Below are positions 885-35,010 of a DNA stretch of 37,372 bases, piece by piece (the stretch's first letter is position 1; each line of letters begins with the position of its first letter). The stretch covers positions 1 to 37,372 of the forward strand of contig JAJZVR010000006.1 in NCBI GenBank assembly GCA_021847065.1, in the 5' to 3' direction. The position numbers were made by a program, and so were the translations under genes. The notes beneath the pieces are model-generated. The model was not told the DNA's origin, ran no database searches, and saw only the letters and a program-made list of their open reading frames with translations. This DNA comes from Planctomycetota bacterium (GTDB taxonomy: Bacteria; Planctomycetota; Phycisphaerae; WQYP01).

Positions 885-1122
885 GGCAGTCTCCAAAACA
901 TTCCGGCATTCGCGCCACGAATCCTATAAATCGTATACCGGGATACCCTGCAATGCCAGCTATCGCTCTTAGATCCGGCATTTCTCCTGAACAGATAAAG
1001 GGTCGGCGGATGCCCGCCCCCCCAGGCACCGAATAAATCCCGTCGTAACTGCCGCGAACGCATCAACGCCGCCGATTCGCTGTGACGTTTTTTTCGCGGC
1101 ACTTTTCGTTTATGATACCGGC

Positions 1123-1680
1123 ATGGCGGAGCAGTTATTGGCGGACAATTCGACTTTGCGCAAGCGGCTGCTGGTGGGAGCTTTGGCTTTTTTGCTGCTG
1201 CTGGCTATCGGCAGCGCGTATGCCGTCACCCTGATAACCCGCATGGACGGCAACACCCTTTATGGCTCCCGCGGAAACTTGCACGCGGCAATCAAAAGTA
1301 CTCAGGGATTGCAATACATTACCTCCGGCAATATCGATTTGGAAGGCCGCAATCGGCATTATCAGCAGGTTTATCTGGTGCTCGCGAAGGGACTGAAAAC
1401 TCCGGCCAAGGCTCTTGCCGACCATGTATACCGGCAAATGCTCTCCAAGGGATGGCCGCACGAGAGTAATGTGTATGTGAAAACCACCTTTCGCCACGGC
1501 AACATGTATATTTATAAAGCCATGGGCGGACCGAATGGTAAATTTATCTGGGTAGCCGCCATGCGCCATGGCCAGGTGGTTAATTTGATTAGTTATGCCG
1601 GCGATAGTCTGGATTTACCGTTAGATCAGCAGGAATTTAATACACTGATTCAGTGGGTTCAGCAGAACCAAGCCAATTAA
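1123..1680 (+). CDS. Uncharacterised protein with one N-terminal transmembrane segment
   Basis: 185-aa ORF; RLLVGALAFLLLLAIGSAYAVTL membrane anchor; first of five co-directional, closely spaced genes. Confidence 0.75.
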   Translation: MAEQLLADNSTLRKRLLVGALAFLLLLAIGSAYAVTLITRMDGNTLYGSRGNLHAAIKSTQGLQYITSGNIDLEGRNRHYQQVYLVLAKGLKTPAKALADHVYRQMLSKGWPHESNVYVKTTFRHGNMYIYKAMGGPNGKFIWVAAMRHGQVVNLISYAGDSLDLPLDQQEFNTLIQWVQQNQAN

Positions 1681-1703
1681 TTTAATCTCGCACGGAGTTC
1701 TCT

Positions 1704-3311
1704 ATGCGCGCACTTGCGATACTACAATTGTTCCATATACCTCACCTGCGCCAAGCCAGCACCGCGTTGGGCGTACTGCTGGCAATTGGCATCGGCTCTT
1801 CAGGAATATTTCCCCCCAGCCTCGCGGCACAAACGCCCGATACAAATATGCTCGCCCCGCTTTGGATTGACGCTTTAGACGGCTTTGAATTGCGTCCGCC
1901 ACTGAATTGCGACGTTCTGCAACCCAAATTTCAAGCAGCGCCGCCGCAAAAAAATGGAACCCTCCCGGTCAGGCCGGGCAATCTGGTAACGTTCGTAAAT
2001 AATTCCCTGCGATGGGGCATTATCGTACATCTAAGTGAACTGGAAAAAGCTGTGCCCCTGAAAACATTGCTGGACGAAACCGTCGCCGAGGCCAGACATA
2101 ATTATCCAAAAGTGCGGGTTCTGGCCCGGCGGATGGTAACAAACTCCGGTAAACCCGCGGGCATTCTCGTTCTACAACTCACCACCGCTTCCAACAATAA
2201 GCCGGTTATGCGCCAGCAGCTTATTATCCGGGCGGCCCCCAAGCTCTATTACCTGCTTACGTTTTTCAGCCCCGCGGGCCAGGCCGACGGCGCACGGGCA
2301 TGTTTTTCCGCCATGATCAAAACCTTCCGCCTGCTCAATATGGCAAAACTTCAACAGCAGCGGGCCGCAGCGGTAATCGCCGGACGCAAATGGCTTCAGG
2401 GAATCACCGCTGAAATGCTTAAAAAAAAGGATATTCATCCCCATTTATATCAGATTAAAGTCAACGGAAAGGGCATCGGATACGTACTGGTGTCATGCTA
2501 TCCCGGCGCGGAAGATGGTTATACCGGCATGTTCAGTTCTACCAACGCCCGAACGTTTTTGCCCAATGGAGACGCGATACTTTCCAAAGTGATCTGTTTC
2601 TGGGCGTATGCCCAGCAGGGCAAAAAAACCGGACCCGCCACGCATTACACCACTTGGTATAAAGCGGTTGAAACCCTGGTCCCGATTAATAACCCCCAGG
2701 AAGTTAAAATGCGCCAGGAGCGCATTGTTATCGATCCCAAAACCAATAAGCCCAAACTCGAACATATCAAAATTCCCTATCCCAATATGCAAATTCACTG
2801 GGTCCGGGAAACCGGTGATGAACAATCAGCCTATGTTCCGCAACTCGATAAACATGGCAACCCGACCGATTTTTTTGTCCGCCACCGCTGGATGACTGTT
2901 TATATGCAGCGAAGACATGTTTTGCCCGGCCAACCCAATAAGCCAACTCACTTCGAATTGCCTTCCTATATGCCGGCCTATTTACCGCTGACCTTAAAAT
3001 ATTTCTGGCCCCGGCTGGTAAATCTGGCCAAACCCTCCGCCATGGGTTTTGTCACGTTTAATTCCGGCTCCCGCCGCTTGGGCCTGCGCCTGCTGCGTGT
3101 GCGCGGCATACAGCGCATCACCGTTAATGGCCGCAAAATCGCCGCGCGTCACCTCACCGAACAACTGGACCCCGGAATCGCAAACCTCTGGGTGAATTCC
3201 AGAGGCATGTTGATAAAATACCTTGGTTCAGACGGCAGCGCATGGACCCCAACCACGGCGGCGGCCATGAATAAAAAATGGAAAGCCCGGCTGGCCGCCC
3301 TGAAACAATAA
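1704..3311 (+). CDS. Uncharacterised secreted protein (535 aa)
   Basis: Long ORF with N-terminal hydrophobic signal-like segment (ALGVLLAIGIGSSGIFPPSLAAQ); 23 nt after the previous gene. Confidence 0.8.
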   Translation: MRALAILQLFHIPHLRQASTALGVLLAIGIGSSGIFPPSLAAQTPDTNMLAPLWIDALDGFELRPPLNCDVLQPKFQAAPPQKNGTLPVRPGNLVTFVNNSLRWGIIVHLSELEKAVPLKTLLDETVAEARHNYPKVRVLARRMVTNSGKPAGILVLQLTTASNNKPVMRQQLIIRAAPKLYYLLTFFSPAGQADGARACFSAMIKTFRLLNMAKLQQQRAAAVIAGRKWLQGITAEMLKKKDIHPHLYQIKVNGKGIGYVLVSCYPGAEDGYTGMFSSTNARTFLPNGDAILSKVICFWAYAQQGKKTGPATHYTTWYKAVETLVPINNPQEVKMRQERIVIDPKTNKPKLEHIKIPYPNMQIHWVRETGDEQSAYVPQLDKHGNPTDFFVRHRWMTVYMQRRHVLPGQPNKPTHFELPSYMPAYLPLTLKYFWPRLVNLAKPSAMGFVTFNSGSRRLGLRLLRVRGIQRITVNGRKIAARHLTEQLDPGIANLWVNSRGMLIKYLGSDGSAWTPTTAAAMNKKWKARLAALKQ

Positions 3312-3321
3312 AGGACTTGCA

Positions 3322-4089
3322 ATGCGGAATTTTCTAAAACGCGTGATTGTTCTGGTGGTACTGACAACCATCATGGCCACTGCTATTAACATGGCCATCT
3401 ATTTCACATCCCGCAACGCCCGCATCCTGCAATTGGAACGTGAACGCAAACACCTCCAAACCGTCATCAACCGCCTTACCGGAAAACGCCGCATGGCCGA
3501 ACTGGTGGTGGATGGGCAAGTCACCAATGGCCAGCGGCAGGTGCTGCAAACCACGCTTCTGTGGGAAGAATTCGTCACCGGGCCTGATGGCCGCCGCATA
3601 GCTCTACCAATCAAAAAAATTATTATCCCCGGGGATACCCCCTATGTGGACGGTTATGTGCTCAAATTCCAGGATAAGTTTGTCGAACAAGGCAATTTGC
3701 TGCGTGGCAAGTCCCTGGCTTTTTTCCGCCGGATTTTCTCAACAAAACAATCCCCCCACCTGGGCAACTCCCTGCTGGATTCGCACGGTGTGCCGCCTTG
3801 TCTGGACGGGAAAGCCGGTCGCCCCGACACCTTTACACTCGATCTCTGGCAACATATTCAGCAGCTTATGCAGCATCCAGCGTCCGCCAAAAAACTGGGC
3901 CTGGATATTGTCCAGGGGCAGGCGGTATATCGGCCCGTCAAGCCCGGACGCTTGTATGTCATTTATCTGCAAAATGACGGCGGAATGGAATTCACGCAAC
4001 AAGCCGGCGAATCTTCACTTATTAATCGACTCCTGAAAGAAGCGGATCATACTCACTCGCAAACCGCGACCACCCCGGGCGCGCAGTAA
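3322..4089 (+). CDS. Uncharacterised membrane-anchored protein with short coiled-coil-like stretch
   Basis: 255-aa ORF; N-terminal TM (VIVLVVLTTIMATAINMAIYF) then charged LERERKHLQTVINRL; 10 nt after the previous gene. Confidence 0.75.
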   Translation: MRNFLKRVIVLVVLTTIMATAINMAIYFTSRNARILQLERERKHLQTVINRLTGKRRMAELVVDGQVTNGQRQVLQTTLLWEEFVTGPDGRRIALPIKKIIIPGDTPYVDGYVLKFQDKFVEQGNLLRGKSLAFFRRIFSTKQSPHLGNSLLDSHGVPPCLDGKAGRPDTFTLDLWQHIQQLMQHPASAKKLGLDIVQGQAVYRPVKPGRLYVIYLQNDGGMEFTQQAGESSLINRLLKEADHTHSQTATTPGAQ

Positions 4090-4115
4090 CCTGTAAACCA
4101 ATTAAAAGGTGGCAC

Positions 4116-5570
4116 ATGGTCTCTGATGGCTCTCCAGCACTGATGACCAACCACACCCGCCCGCCCTTGCCATCATCGGCAATTGCCACCACCGTGTGGC
4201 TGATAACCGGCACGGTACTTATCGCCTTGGCGATTTTGCTGCGCCTCAACGCGCCAACGCTGGCCCACAGCGTGTTACGTCACCTGACCATCCGTAACCT
4301 GTTTGTCGCCGGCAACGTCCTGGCCGGAACAGTATTTCTATGCAGTTGCCTCTTCCTGCGGCGAAACATGGGAAAATATCTGTTTTTCTGGATGCTGCTG
4401 ACTGGCCTGACATGTCGGCTGATTATCCTAAGCGGAACGCCGGTATTATCCACCGATTACTATCGCTTCCTCTGGGATGGCGCGGTACTCGCACAAGGCC
4501 ACAACCCCTGGCTTTACAGCCCAAAAGCGGTACTGGATCATTCCAATCCCACAATAAATCCAGCTTTAACCGCCTTGGCACAGGCCCATCGCGCCCTGAT
4601 GCTCCACATCAATCACCCGGATTTGCCGACCATTTATCCGCCGGTCAGCGAGTTTGCGATGGCACTGGCGGCCAAAATCGCGCCGTTCAGCGCCACCGCT
4701 TTGCGTTGCGTGTATTTGGTTTTTGACACCGCCACCGCTATTTTCATCGCCATAATCCTACGTCGTCTGCATCGCCCCAGTTCCTGGCTGCTGATCTACT
4801 GGTGGAATCCCGTGCTCATCAACGCCTTTTATAACGAAGCACATATGGATGTAATGACCCTGGCGTTTGTTGCGCTCTTTGCGTTAATGCTCGTTATGCA
4901 GCGCCCCAAATCCGCCGCAACTGCATTGGGTTTGGCCATTGGTGCAAAATTCTGGCCCATCGTATTGGCTCCGGTTCTACTGCGGCCACTATTGAAAAAT
5001 CGAAAACAATTGGCAATCGTCACCACGGTCTTGGCGCTGGTCAGCGCCGCCGCGCTGATTCCCATGTTTTTAACCGCCGGGCCCGCACTGCATTCACTGC
5101 TGAGCTATGGGCGATATTGGCACGAAAATGACGGCGTATTTCGCCTCGTTTCCATGTTCTGGCACCATGTATTTCCCGCCACAGCATATATGCGGCCCGC
5201 AGTTGCATCGCGTATCACAATTGCAGTTATTTATCTCACCGCACTGATTATCCTCAATCGCAAAGCCGCAACCCCAAGCCACGCCATACGGGTTTGCCTG
5301 TTTTCCGTCATGTTCATTTTTCTGTTAAGCCCGACGGAATTTGCCTGGTACTACACCTGGCTGCTGCCTCTGCTGGCTATTTACCCGCGCATTTCACTGT
5401 TGGTCTGGTCCTTAACGCTGGGCCTTTATCACGCCCACTATTTTTATCCTTGGATGATCTGGCTTGAACATGGGCCCGTCTGCGCGCTGCTGATTTTAGA
5501 ATTGCTCTGGCCCCGTCTGGCCAATTGGTTTGTTGCGGATTCTCACACCCCTTTGCCCATTGCAGCGTGA
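4116..5570 (+). CDS. Polytopic membrane glycosyltransferase (GT87/mannosyltransferase-like)
   Basis: 484-aa ORF with many TM segments; STDYYRFLWDGAVLAQGHNPW motif typical of GT-C type transferases (DUF2029-like). Confidence 0.75.
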   Translation: MVSDGSPALMTNHTRPPLPSSAIATTVWLITGTVLIALAILLRLNAPTLAHSVLRHLTIRNLFVAGNVLAGTVFLCSCLFLRRNMGKYLFFWMLLTGLTCRLIILSGTPVLSTDYYRFLWDGAVLAQGHNPWLYSPKAVLDHSNPTINPALTALAQAHRALMLHINHPDLPTIYPPVSEFAMALAAKIAPFSATALRCVYLVFDTATAIFIAIILRRLHRPSSWLLIYWWNPVLINAFYNEAHMDVMTLAFVALFALMLVMQRPKSAATALGLAIGAKFWPIVLAPVLLRPLLKNRKQLAIVTTVLALVSAAALIPMFLTAGPALHSLLSYGRYWHENDGVFRLVSMFWHHVFPATAYMRPAVASRITIAVIYLTALIILNRKAATPSHAIRVCLFSVMFIFLLSPTEFAWYYTWLLPLLAIYPRISLLVWSLTLGLYHAHYFYPWMIWLEHGPVCALLILELLWPRLANWFVADSHTPLPIAA

Positions 5571-5682
5571 CCTTGAACCCCGACGACCAACACCCATCGC
5601 AAACTCCGTTGCCCCGCTGCGTTGCCCATGCTCACGTTTCCCATGCTCATTGGCAAATCCGCCACATGGGCCGTAAACTCCC

Positions 5683-6429
5683 ATGATGAATGCTCCGTCC
5701 ACTACGTTTCCCGGAATAAATTCTCTCCGCGTGGCGGTTATTATCCCCGCCATCAATGAGGAAAAATCAATCGGACAGGTCATCGCGGATATTCCCGCAT
5801 GGGTAACAGAAATTATCGTCGCCGATAATGGCTCCACGGATAACACCGTCGCCGTCGCTCAACAGGCCGGAGCCAAAGTCGTGCCCGCCGCTGTTCGCGG
5901 CTATGGCAGCGCCTGCCTCGCCGGTATTGCAGCCGCGGAAAATGCCGATATTCTCGTTTTTATCGATGGCGATTTCAGTGATTATCCCCAGCAAATGCAC
6001 ACGCTGGTTCAACCCATCGCTGAAAATCACGCCGACATGGTTATTGGATCACGCACACTCGGACACCGCCAACGCGGTTCATTAACCATTCAGCAGCGCT
6101 TTGGCGGGGCGCTGGCCTGCTGGCTTATGTGGCTTCTGTGGTCTGTGCGCTATACCGACCTCGGCCCATTTCGCGCTATATCTCGCCCGGCGCTGCTGCA
6201 ATTGCGCATGGATGATCGTAATTTTGGCTGGACCGTGCAAATGCAGATTCGCGCCGCCATCACCGGCCTGCGAACCATGGAAGTTCCCGTCGATTACCGC
6301 CGGCGCATTGGCCGATCTAAGATTTCCGGCACGCTGCGCGGTGTAGTCATGGCCGGATATAAAATTTTGTACACCATCGGCAAAGAATTTTTGGCCGCCC
6401 GGCATTTTTCCGGAAAAGCCGGTAAATAG
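5683..6429 (+). CDS. Family 2 glycosyltransferase (dolichol-phosphate mannosyltransferase-like)
   Basis: 248-aa ORF: VAVIIPAINEEKSIGQVIADIP..VTEIIVADNGSTDNT..ILVFIDGDFSDYPQ; GT2 nucleotide-binding and DxD-like motifs. Confidence 0.88.
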   Translation: MMNAPSTTFPGINSLRVAVIIPAINEEKSIGQVIADIPAWVTEIIVADNGSTDNTVAVAQQAGAKVVPAAVRGYGSACLAGIAAAENADILVFIDGDFSDYPQQMHTLVQPIAENHADMVIGSRTLGHRQRGSLTIQQRFGGALACWLMWLLWSVRYTDLGPFRAISRPALLQLRMDDRNFGWTVQMQIRAAITGLRTMEVPVDYRRRIGRSKISGTLRGVVMAGYKILYTIGKEFLAARHFSGKAGK

Positions 6430-6760: not shown

Positions 6761-6800
6761 AGAGTTGTTTGGGCCGCAGCGCCCATTACGGAGCCTTCCG

Positions 6801-8456
6801 ATGACCACGAAACTTCCCCCCATGCCCCTACGTCCGAAAATGCTTAGTGTTGTAGATGATAACACTTCTACATCACATTCCAACGCTGCGCGGTGTGCCG
6901 GCGCGGCGGTCGCATTGGCGGCTGCGTTTGCCGCCGCCAATGCTGTTCATGCCAATACCACGTTTGATCAAATTGGCCTCACACAATTGCAAAGCATCGC
7001 TCCCAACATCAACGGATCAGGTGTTAATGTCGCGCAGGTCGAGGCCTCCGTCAGCAGCACCACTCAAAACGCCTTTGAACCCAACCCCGCCAATCTCAAC
7101 ACCCATGCCCAGTTTACTTTCATTGATTCATCCGGAACTTCTTCCGGATCTTACAACAGTGCCGACGCCTCCTGGCACGCGGAATATGTCGCTTCACTAT
7201 TTTACGGCGGTGCCGGTGCGGGCGTTGCACCGGATGTTTCACATGTTTATGTCTATGCCGAAAGTTATTATTTCAATACGCTCTACGCCGTCACCGCGCC
7301 GATCAACAGTTCCGCCGGCCTGGCGCCTTCCGTCGTGAATCAAAGCTTTATTTATCCCGGCGTGACAAGCTCCACCAGCCAGTACCTCGATCAAATCTGG
7401 GATAATTATGCCGCGCAATACAACACGTTGTTTGTTACCGCCATCGGCGATGGCCAAACCACCAGCACCTCGACACCCAGTTATGTCAATGCACCGGCAG
7501 ATATGTACAACGGTATTGCCGTCGGTGCCTACACCGGCATTGGTGGCACACCCTCCACGTGGGTCGGCCCAACTTGGGATGGGCGATCCGCGCCAGATCT
7601 GATCGCGCCAGGCAGCTACACCAGCTATACCGCACCGTTGGTCAGCGGATCGGCCGCACTGTTAATCCAGGCTGGTAACGCCGATATCGGCGGCACCGGC
7701 ACCGCCAGCGCCGCCACCGACATCCGCACCGTTAAGGCACTTCTGTTAAATGGTGCCACCAAAATTCAGGGCTGGACCAACTCTTACTCCGCCAACAGCG
7801 GCACCTACACCTACAACGCCGCCAGCGCCAACGCCACCACACCGTTGGATCCACGCTACGGCGTAGGCATGGTCAATGTCTACAACGCGTACACAAATCT
7901 CGCCGGTGGCGAACATAATTACTCAGCCGCCACCAGCTCTGCAATCAGCGCGTTCTCCACCAATACCACCGCCGCCCCAACCGCCAACTTCACGGGAACT
8001 GCTGTCACAGCAACAACCGGATGGAATCTCGCTTCCATCACCGCGTCCTCCAGCAAAAATGCGGTTGAAAATTATGACTTTAATCTGCCGGGAACATCCA
8101 TCAATAGTTGGGATTTAACCGCCACGTTAACCTGGAACAAAGATTACCAGGCCAGTGGAATCAATCATCTGCTGCTGTTTTTATTGAATTCCTCCGGCCA
8201 GCAGGTCGCCAGCAGCACCAGCATGTCGGACAATCTGCAACAGATCAACATTAATTCCAGCCTCGGCATGACCACCTTGGCCCCCGGCCAATACGATCTG
8301 GCCGTAGAAATGCTCGGCGGCAGCAATCTTATATCCAATTCCGAAACCTACGCCCTAGCCTGGAATTTTGTCGACCCAGTCTCCGTCCCCGAACCCGGCG
8401 CCATCGCCATCCTCCTCGCCGGCTCCATGTTCGCAATGCTGAAACGGAAAAGCTGA
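6801..8456 (+). CDS. PEP-CTERM subtilisin-like (S8 fold) protein with substituted catalytic Asp
   Basis: ORF listed from 6765; ATG 6801 has a plausible SD. S8-like blocks: SGVNVAQVEASV, SWHAEYVASLFYG, YTSYTAPLVSGSAALL. C-terminus VPEPGAIAILLAGSMFAMLKRKS is a PEP-CTERM signal. Confidence 0.8.
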   Translation: MTTKLPPMPLRPKMLSVVDDNTSTSHSNAARCAGAAVALAAAFAAANAVHANTTFDQIGLTQLQSIAPNINGSGVNVAQVEASVSSTTQNAFEPNPANLNTHAQFTFIDSSGTSSGSYNSADASWHAEYVASLFYGGAGAGVAPDVSHVYVYAESYYFNTLYAVTAPINSSAGLAPSVVNQSFIYPGVTSSTSQYLDQIWDNYAAQYNTLFVTAIGDGQTTSTSTPSYVNAPADMYNGIAVGAYTGIGGTPSTWVGPTWDGRSAPDLIAPGSYTSYTAPLVSGSAALLIQAGNADIGGTGTASAATDIRTVKALLLNGATKIQGWTNSYSANSGTYTYNAASANATTPLDPRYGVGMVNVYNAYTNLAGGEHNYSAATSSAISAFSTNTTAAPTANFTGTAVTATTGWNLASITASSSKNAVENYDFNLPGTSINSWDLTATLTWNKDYQASGINHLLLFLLNSSGQQVASSTSMSDNLQQININSSLGMTTLAPGQYDLAVEMLGGSNLISNSETYALAWNFVDPVSVPEPGAIAILLAGSMFAMLKRKS

Positions 8457-32438: not shown

Positions 32439-33710
32439 GTGTCAACAGTCAAAACCGCCGGTGGAAAAACCCGGCAGGATGTAACAACATTATCCAATGG
32501 TCTGACATTGCTCGTGGAATCAATGCCCGGCGTGCGCTCAGCGGCGATGGCGCTGCTGACGCCTATGGGAGCCGCATCCGACCCTGCCGGTGCTCTGGGA
32601 AGCGCCAACGTTCTGGCGGATTGGATAACCCGTGGTGCCGGGGAAAGAGATAACCGAGCGATAACCGATTATCTCGATTCATTGGGTGTACAAAGATCCA
32701 CAAGTGCGGAAACGGTTTTCATGCGTTTCAGTGCTTCCATGCTGGCGGATAAATTGCCGCAGGTATTGCCGGTATACGGCGATATATTGCTGCGGCCCAT
32801 GCTGCCGGAAGCCGGCTTTGGTCCCGCCCGTGACCTGGCCATGCAGCAATTGGACGCCATTGAAGATGAACCTGCGCAAAAACTCAATCTATTGATCAAG
32901 GCCCGTCACTTTGCCGAGCCGTATGGCCGACCTGTGGTGGGAAAAAAGGACCATCTCAATACGTTAACACCCGCCGCATTACGCAAAGATTTCCAAAGCC
33001 GCTGTACCGCCCGTGGTTCCATTCTCGCGGTTGCGGGCGCGGTGGAGTTTGCGGCGGTGCGGGACATGGTGGAACAGCATTTTGGCGCTTGGCAGTCAAA
33101 AGAACCGGTACAGCAGCCGGTGCGAGCGGCGGCGGGTGGCGTGTGGCATGAACAGCAGGCAAGCAATCAGGTACAGATCGGCCTGGCGTTTGATGCTATC
33201 GCGGAAACTGATCCTGACAGCATTGTGTTGCAATTGGCGATGAATATTTTAAGCGGTGGCATGGGGGCGCGGCTGTTTTCTGAAATCCGGGAAAAGCAGG
33301 GCCTGTGTTACGCCGTCAGTGCCGGATATATGAGTCTCAAACACATCGGTGCCGTTCTCGGTTATGCCGGCACGGTTCCGGAGCGCGCCCAAAAAACATT
33401 GGATTCGTTTTTGCATGAATTGCAGCGTTTCAGTTCCGGGGCCCAGCAGGATGAACTCGACCGGGCACAGGTGGGCATGAAGGCCCGCGTGATTATGAAT
33501 GGTGAAAGTTCTGCCGCCCGGGCCGGTGCCATTGCCCATGATTTTTATCATTATGGCCGCCCCCGGACCTTGGACGAATTACGCGCCCGCATTGAAAGCG
33601 TTGATCTTAAACGCCTCAATGCGTTCCTTGCGTCACATAAGGCCGGCAAATTGACGGTAGTGACCATTGGCCCGGCCCCGCTGGCGGTACCGGTGGATAT
33701 GATTGGTTAA
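32439..33710 (+). CDS. M16 family peptidase homologue lacking HxxEH (probable non-catalytic partner)
   Basis: 423 aa; M16 fold features (LSNGLTLLVESMPGVRSAAMALL, GGMGARLFSEIREKQGLCYAVSAGY) but ALGSANVLADWITRGAGERD where HxxEH is expected. Confidence 0.85.
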   Translation: MSTVKTAGGKTRQDVTTLSNGLTLLVESMPGVRSAAMALLTPMGAASDPAGALGSANVLADWITRGAGERDNRAITDYLDSLGVQRSTSAETVFMRFSASMLADKLPQVLPVYGDILLRPMLPEAGFGPARDLAMQQLDAIEDEPAQKLNLLIKARHFAEPYGRPVVGKKDHLNTLTPAALRKDFQSRCTARGSILAVAGAVEFAAVRDMVEQHFGAWQSKEPVQQPVRAAAGGVWHEQQASNQVQIGLAFDAIAETDPDSIVLQLAMNILSGGMGARLFSEIREKQGLCYAVSAGYMSLKHIGAVLGYAGTVPERAQKTLDSFLHELQRFSSGAQQDELDRAQVGMKARVIMNGESSAARAGAIAHDFYHYGRPRTLDELRARIESVDLKRLNAFLASHKAGKLTVVTIGPAPLAVPVDMIG

Positions 33711-33786
33711 TGACAATGCAGGCACGGATCGGCAGACGTCCCCTGGGCGTTGCGGCCCGGCCGTATAAATCCCGGAGAGTTTTTAC

Positions 33787-35010
33787 ATGGTAACATTCAA
33801 ACACACACAATTAAAAAATGGCATGGATATCGTGGCTGAAATAAACCCCGAAGCGCAAAGCGTGGCCATCGGATTTATGGTTAAAACCGGTGCCCGTGAT
33901 GAATCCGGCGAAGTTTACGGGGTATCACATTTCCTGGAACACATGATGTTCAAAGGCACATCCCGCCGTTCCAGTGCGGATGTAAACCGTGAGTTTGATG
34001 CCATGGGCGCACGTAACAATGCGTTTACCAGCAATGAAGTCACCTGTTACTGGGCCCATATTCTGCCGGAATTTTTGCCCGCGGCGCTGGATCTGCTGGC
34101 TGATATGATGCGCCCGGCTCTGCGCGGTGACGATTTTAATATGGAAAAGAAAGTTATTCTTGAGGAGATCGCGCTGTATCTGGATCGCCCGGGGCATGTG
34201 CTTTATGAGGCGGTTATGGAAGATCATTTCCGCAATCATCCCCTGGCGCATTCGGTGTTGGGTACCAAAGAGTCCATTACCGCGTTAACCCGCGATCAGA
34301 TGCAAACCTATTTTGACGCCCGATACGGTCCCGGCAATATGGTACTGGCCGTGGCCGGCAAGATGGATTTTGACGAATTGGTGCGATTGTCGGAGCAAAA
34401 ATGTGGCCAATGGAAACATCTGGATGTGCATCGGCAATATCCGGTGGCGGAAATTAAGGGTGGCATAAGGCATATTACCGATTCCAAGCTTAAACGCCAT
34501 TACGTTGCCATGATTTGCCCCGGCCCTTCCGCACAACATGATGGGCGCTATGCCGCACAGGTGCTTTCGGACGTGATTGGTGATCATGACGGATCGCGCT
34601 TTTACTGGGCGCTGGTTGAGCCGGGATTGGCGGATGAAGCGGACTTTTCATTTTACCCGCACGATGGCACGGGCAGCTTTTTTGCCTATGCCTCCTGCGA
34701 TCCGGCACGCTCACAGCAGGTGGCGGAAATATTACGTGGTGAATTACAAAAAATCGCCGATCATGGCCTGACCGATCAGGAAATTTCCCGCAGTAAAAAC
34801 AAAATCGCCACCGCCGCGGTATTGCAGGGCGAATTGCCGCTGGGCCGCATGCGCAATATCTGCTCGCGCTGGATTTACAATCAGGAATACAAAACCCTGG
34901 AAGAAGATTTGCAACTGCTGGAAGGCGTCAACGCGGCGGCCATTAAGAAAGTCATCCACGAATTTCCGTTCAACCCAATTACCACAACCACGCTGGGGCC
35001 AGCGGCGTGA
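33787..35010 (+). CDS. M16 family zinc peptidase
   Basis: 407 aa; LKNGMDIVAEINPEAQSVAIGFMVKTGARDE, HFLEHMMFKGT (HxxEH) and downstream Glu region LEEIALYLDRPGH. Confidence 0.93.
   Translation: MVTFKHTQLKNGMDIVAEINPEAQSVAIGFMVKTGARDESGEVYGVSHFLEHMMFKGTSRRSSADVNREFDAMGARNNAFTSNEVTCYWAHILPEFLPAALDLLADMMRPALRGDDFNMEKKVILEEIALYLDRPGHVLYEAVMEDHFRNHPLAHSVLGTKESITALTRDQMQTYFDARYGPGNMVLAVAGKMDFDELVRLSEQKCGQWKHLDVHRQYPVAEIKGGIRHITDSKLKRHYVAMICPGPSAQHDGRYAAQVLSDVIGDHDGSRFYWALVEPGLADEADFSFYPHDGTGSFFAYASCDPARSQQVAEILRGELQKIADHGLTDQEISRSKNKIATAAVLQGELPLGRMRNICSRWIYNQEYKTLEEDLQLLEGVNAAAIKKVIHEFPFNPITTTTLGPAA

Follow-up and report, generated by a model that had tools for sequence, protein, structure and literature searches.

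The window analysed here, 37,372 nucleotides of DNA from a member of the Phycisphaerae (Planctomycetota), is the entire contig C82 of a 3.7-Mb MAG that is 88% complete. Near its start lie five ORFs on the forward strand: p1 (1123..1680), encoding a small envelope protein of 185 aa anchored by a single TM segment; p2 (1704..3311), an exported two-domain protein of 535 aa; p3 (3322..4089), a 255 aa protein with a TM segment, a coiled coil and a mixed alpha/beta domain; a GT87 (GT-C) glycosyltransferase of 484 aa (4116..5570; PF09594); and a GT2 glycosyltransferase of the AglJ/DPM1-like, polyprenyl-phosphate sugar synthase type (5683..6429; PF00535), with 248 aa and no TM segment. Successive ORFs are separated by 23, 10, 26 and 112 bp, so the co-directional, closely spaced string described in the original prediction is present in full, and the view that its first three products are secreted or anchored is borne out by hydrophobicity, which gives one N-terminal segment each in p1 and p3 and a signal-peptide-like N-terminus in p2. 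Sibling MAG contigs L022, L024 and L025 carry the same five genes in the same order at ~72-93% protein identity each, and for this reason we regard all five ORFs as real genes; sibling contig L023 ends within GT2. The weakest join is the 112-bp gap 5' of GT2, which could hold a promoter; a pattern scan gave promoter-like sites at a level not above chance. Searches of the window for RNA families and tRNAs returned none.

Upstream of p1 there is an AAA-type gene truncated at the contig end (1-1085), and sibling species carry a divergent ABC ATPase/permease pair at this site. Just after GT2 lies a gene for a secreted, possibly subtilisin-like protein with a PEP-CTERM tail (6765-8456; TIGR02595 above cut-off), which is kept in L022 and L025 and was not found in L024. 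This is followed by a polysaccharide-utilisation-like locus, mostly on the reverse strand (8905-29086), with genes for a GH2 mannosidase-like protein, a sulfatase, an MFS transporter, an F5/8 C-domain protein, two GH5 proteins and a PA14-GH8 protein, together with a LacI-type regulator on the forward strand, and by two M16 peptidase genes in tandem (32439-35010).

The cluster was compared with Planctomycetota MAGs and one Hydrogenedentes contig, the main counts referring to 101 relatives; most of these genomes are fragmentary MAGs with genes called by a simple ORF rule. Homology of the window to sibling loci starts at about 1085, and a -10-like hexamer, TATGAT (1111..1116, forward strand), precedes the start codon of p1 by 6 bp. 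A TAnnnT hexamer is present a few bases 5' of the p1 start in 19 of the 26 listed relatives' loci (counted by eye), which suggests that the transcript may be leaderless, starting at p1. Within family f1, 20 loci have a member of the p1 family beside p2, and overlap of p2 with a p1-like TM ORF is seen in family f3. We note that in two species of genus g8 a single ORF encodes both a membrane anchor of the p1 type and, in the same frame, p2 (L037:4297-6054 and L039:4111-5868). Homology between p1 and p2 was considered and rejected, as hhalign gave no match, and early p1 profile matches on p2 were set aside as TM-region matches. By profile searches, p1-p2-p3 is retained in order and strand in nearly all f1 members with a contig covering the site, the adjacency of p2 and p3 extends to several f6 genomes, and genera stay together in the p2 tree; p1-p2-p3 is an ordinary conserved operon of the Phycisphaerae family to which the window belongs.

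The two domains of p2 each resemble proteins of known structure. An N-terminal DcrB/PsbP/EagT6-like domain (residues ~50-207) was recognized by profile and predicted structure, and a C-terminal EipB-like broken beta-barrel (residues ~245-535) by structure comparison. Against the PDB, the p2 profile matched EagT6/PA0094, chaperones of the DcrB fold, with an E-value of 8e-7, and DcrB and PsbP weakly. A Foldseek search with the AlphaFold model of p2 (pLDDT 84.6) found PsbP and DcrB, followed by the lower-scoring beta proteins 6ntr (DUF1849; E 2.4e-3), which we take to be EipB, and BT_1490 (3hlz); we assign these last two matches to the C-terminal domain. Likeness to DcrB is one of fold only, as PF08786 scored 12.5 bits on p2 against a gathering cut-off of 27.2, and a Pfam search of the C-terminal domain in 42 members gave no match to EipB/DUF1849. 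Thus, p2 is similar to the DcrB/EagT6/PsbP fold proteins and to EipB domain by domain, but its two-domain combination falls outside every Pfam family above cut-off.

A PDB structure search with the predicted model of p3 (pLDDT 76.5) returned no relative. Homologues of p3 occur in 54 of the 101 relatives and in 53 of 294 genomes across the phylum, nearly always as a single copy, and p2 is likewise found in 54/101 relatives, with matches that are strong within the family, weak across the class and mostly weak or partial elsewhere in the phylum. Outside f1 and f6, the 40 p3 loci examined had no recurrent neighbour, the only exception to this being p2 in three f6 loci; one neighbour cluster (c12) was discarded as an apparent antisense artefact at p3. 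Overall, p2 is class-wide and p3 phylum-wide, the two are mostly unlinked, and both families are nameless. In our model, p1 and p3 would be anchored in the inner membrane with p2 as their exported two-domain partner, and since the folds of p2 recur in envelope-integrity and in lipid- or peptide-binding proteins, our best guess from fold is that the three work at the inner membrane as a complex for envelope integrity or for the handling of lipids or peptides.

The family assignments proposed for the last two genes, a GT-C-like transferase and a DPM1-like GT2, both hold. The polytopic GT87 passes PF09594 (28.1 bits over the whole protein against a gathering cut-off of 25), and D114, R117, W120, H243, D245 and K278 are invariant across 23 relatives; in this polytopic protein D114 would lie in an early, putatively periplasmic loop, where the base of a GT-C enzyme is expected. 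A sequence search of solved structures with the GT87 of the window gave no match. GT2 has a GT-A GT2 domain (PF00535, 8.6e-22) with a DxD motif in which D95 and D97 are invariant. Its best curated model is that of archaeal AglJ (TIGR04182, 3.3e-34), at 118.6 bits under the cut-off of 325, and the TIGR04283 arsenosugar glycosyltransferase model is also below cut-off (53.8 vs 182 bits). GT2 adjoins GT87 in nearly all carriers and the two are fused to one ORF in several genomes. A precedent is mycobacterial, where the GT-C mannosyltransferase PimE carries out the transfer with an Asp base (PMC12041525) and polyprenyl-P-mannose (PPM) synthase provides the polyprenyl-P-sugar donor (PMC3485146). The window enzymes are alike to these in family types, and the invariant Asp 114 of GT87 would be in an early loop, but they differ in that GT87 is without a solved-structure match and GT2 is nearer to the archaeal AglJ models, below cut-off. 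The proposed donor logic stands in so far as adjacency, fusions and the invariant DxD and Asp argue for a functional pair; charging of a polyprenyl carrier is a plausible addition to it. From the mechanism of its family, GT2 would load a sugar onto polyprenyl phosphate on the cytoplasmic side, and GT87 would then, as PimE does, pass the polyprenyl-linked sugar to an acceptor at the periplasmic or outer face of the inner membrane with an Asp as base.

The distribution of this pair does not follow that of p1-p2-p3. GT87 homologues (E<1e-40) are found in 27 of the 101 relatives, and in seven of these 27 GT87 is located behind p3 (G000, G002, G004, G007, G011, G019 and a copy in G023). The G023 copy is part of a second p2-p3-GT87 locus in that genome (L003; G023:C37), and as its match values are nearly those of G004, a member of genus g1, this is probably a mis-binned contig. 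Of the six genus members that have p3, only four carry the pair behind it, as do two other genera. The five-gene order, which was checked in relatives as a test of a five-gene system, is largely not conserved: outside some members of a single genus it is kept in G019 alone, and G011 has the order without GT2. G006, from the genus of the window, is without exactly GT87-GT2 (the stretch matching L024 7979-10210) between p3 and the next gene. Its DNA alignment with G002 breaks off shortly after p3 ends and restarts after GT2, with p2-p3 intact. By synteny, p3 of G003 adjoins the same downstream neighbour as in G006. G006 does have its own diverged GT87, ~22 kb away on the same contig and beside TIGR04282; in trees this GT87 groups with genus g8 and the p2 of G006 falls within g1. 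For genus g4, the order in G019 is p3-GT87-GT2 followed by a TPR-like gene, which in G010 and G024 comes directly after p3, and the GT87 of these two genomes is ArsS/TIGR04282-linked. The p3-linked GT87 copies do not form one clade (AU p 0.0088, with long branches in the test). From the absence of the pair in G006 and G003, the pattern in g4 and the split in the trees, we conclude that the GT pair comes, goes and is swapped for a homologue while p1-p3 stay. There may nevertheless be some selective link of the pair to p1-p3, as the adjacency of p3 and GT87 spans three deeply diverged genera (g1, g4 with G019 and g5 with G011), with GT87 identity of 37-40%, and just two location changes (one gain, then one loss) suffice to explain the GT87 tree.

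That adjacency, held in g1, g4 and g5 despite large divergence, together with the short intergenic gaps, would fit a reading of the five genes as one system devoted to envelope glycosylation, with GT2-GT87 acting on p1, p2 or p3 or on a product that these assemble. We consider such a system quite unlikely, given that G006 cleanly, and G003 by synteny, are without the pair at p3, that most family members with p1-p3 have no GT87 at this place, that p2 and p3 are widespread in genomes where a strong GT87 homologue was not found, and that the home context of the pair is ArsS/TIGR04282. On the same evidence, the idea that the two enzymes have p1-p3 as their acceptors or assembly factors is not supported, the usual partners of the pair being ArsS, TIGR04282, TIGR04283 and a FAD oxidoreductase.

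This home context of the GT pair is a cluster of the arsenosugar type, with the radical-SAM gene ArsS (TIGR04167), TIGR04282 and TIGR04283, the arsenosugar role of the last two being an annotation by name. In all 20 genomes with a GT87 that is not behind p3, a TIGR04282 gene is within ~4.5 kb of it, and in 15 of these 20 ArsS (over cut-off) is within 10 kb. ArsS was present in 24 of the 27 genomes with a strong GT87 vs nine of the other 74 (Fisher p 7.5e-13, ignoring relatedness). GT87 and TIGR04282 are in one ORF in G012, G017, G020, G022 and G096, with GT2 between them where this was checked. Further neighbours of the pair at such sites are TIGR04283-like and TIGR04282 proteins, a FAD-containing oxidoreductase, an NF045521-type rhodanese that scores below cut-off and, by reading of the sequence, a TVP38-like membrane protein; the same association is seen on the Hydrogenedentes contig L030. 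In contrast to the relatives in which GT87-GT2 are in or fused with such clusters, the window has its pair apart from ArsS and after p1-p2-p3 instead. The genome of the window does encode ArsS, on contig C104 and not beside the GT pair, and TIGR04282 was not found in it at 88% completeness. On C104 (L110), ArsS adjoins MerR, mercuric-reductase-like and MerT-like genes in what reads as a mercury-resistance-type operon. Curated arsenosugar family names cover neither GT87 nor the window-type GT2, and we found no described GT87-ArsS link in the open literature, which does not prove that there is none; the modest novelty of this work is the link of GT87-GT2 to ArsS clusters.

The g1 genomes carry TIGR04282 and ArsS on contigs other than that of the p3-linked pair. 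One explanation for this is that the p3-linked GT87-GT2, having diverged from its ArsS-linked counterpart, today serves the envelope more generally, in the synthesis of glycolipids or polysaccharides. For such a role PimE and PPM synthase provide the precedent already cited, and with it the invariant active-site set is compatible, as it fits any polyprenyl-P-sugar reaction. However, f1 genomes retain just a single strong GT87, linked either to p3 or to ArsS/TIGR04282, and these two kinds replace each other within g1 and g4, which suggests that both do the same job; we therefore hold this divergence to be unlikely. In our judgement the five genes are probably a composite, with a vertically inherited p1-p2-p3 envelope operon followed by the GT87-GT2 pair of a dispersed ArsS-type pathway. 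According to this composite reading, the pair would functionally remain part of that arsenosugar or metalloid pathway and would have come to sit behind p3 during the history of the family; in some relatives the p3-linked pair may later have been lost, with a horizontally acquired homologue present at another site instead. A more specific version, to which we give little weight, is that GT2-GT87 put an arsenosugar-type moiety, or the sugar that receives it, on a polyprenyl carrier and transfer it at the outer side of the inner membrane, with p1-p3 as a local envelope partner in some lineages.

The cluster provides an example of how two modules can be joined for a time in a string of co-directional genes with short gaps, and the congener G006, which is without exactly the GT pair, offers a natural uncoupling test. 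It also brings out two envelope families, the class-wide p2 and the phylum-wide p3, that could be annotated. The adjacency, fusions and exchange of the GT pair with ArsS/TIGR04282 hint at the role of the unassigned glycosyltransferases of those clusters, for which the use of a polyprenyl-linked donor at the membrane is probable. If the arsenosugar-type transfer described above were true, ArsS-type metalloid metabolism would end in an exported or membrane-bound glycoconjugate.
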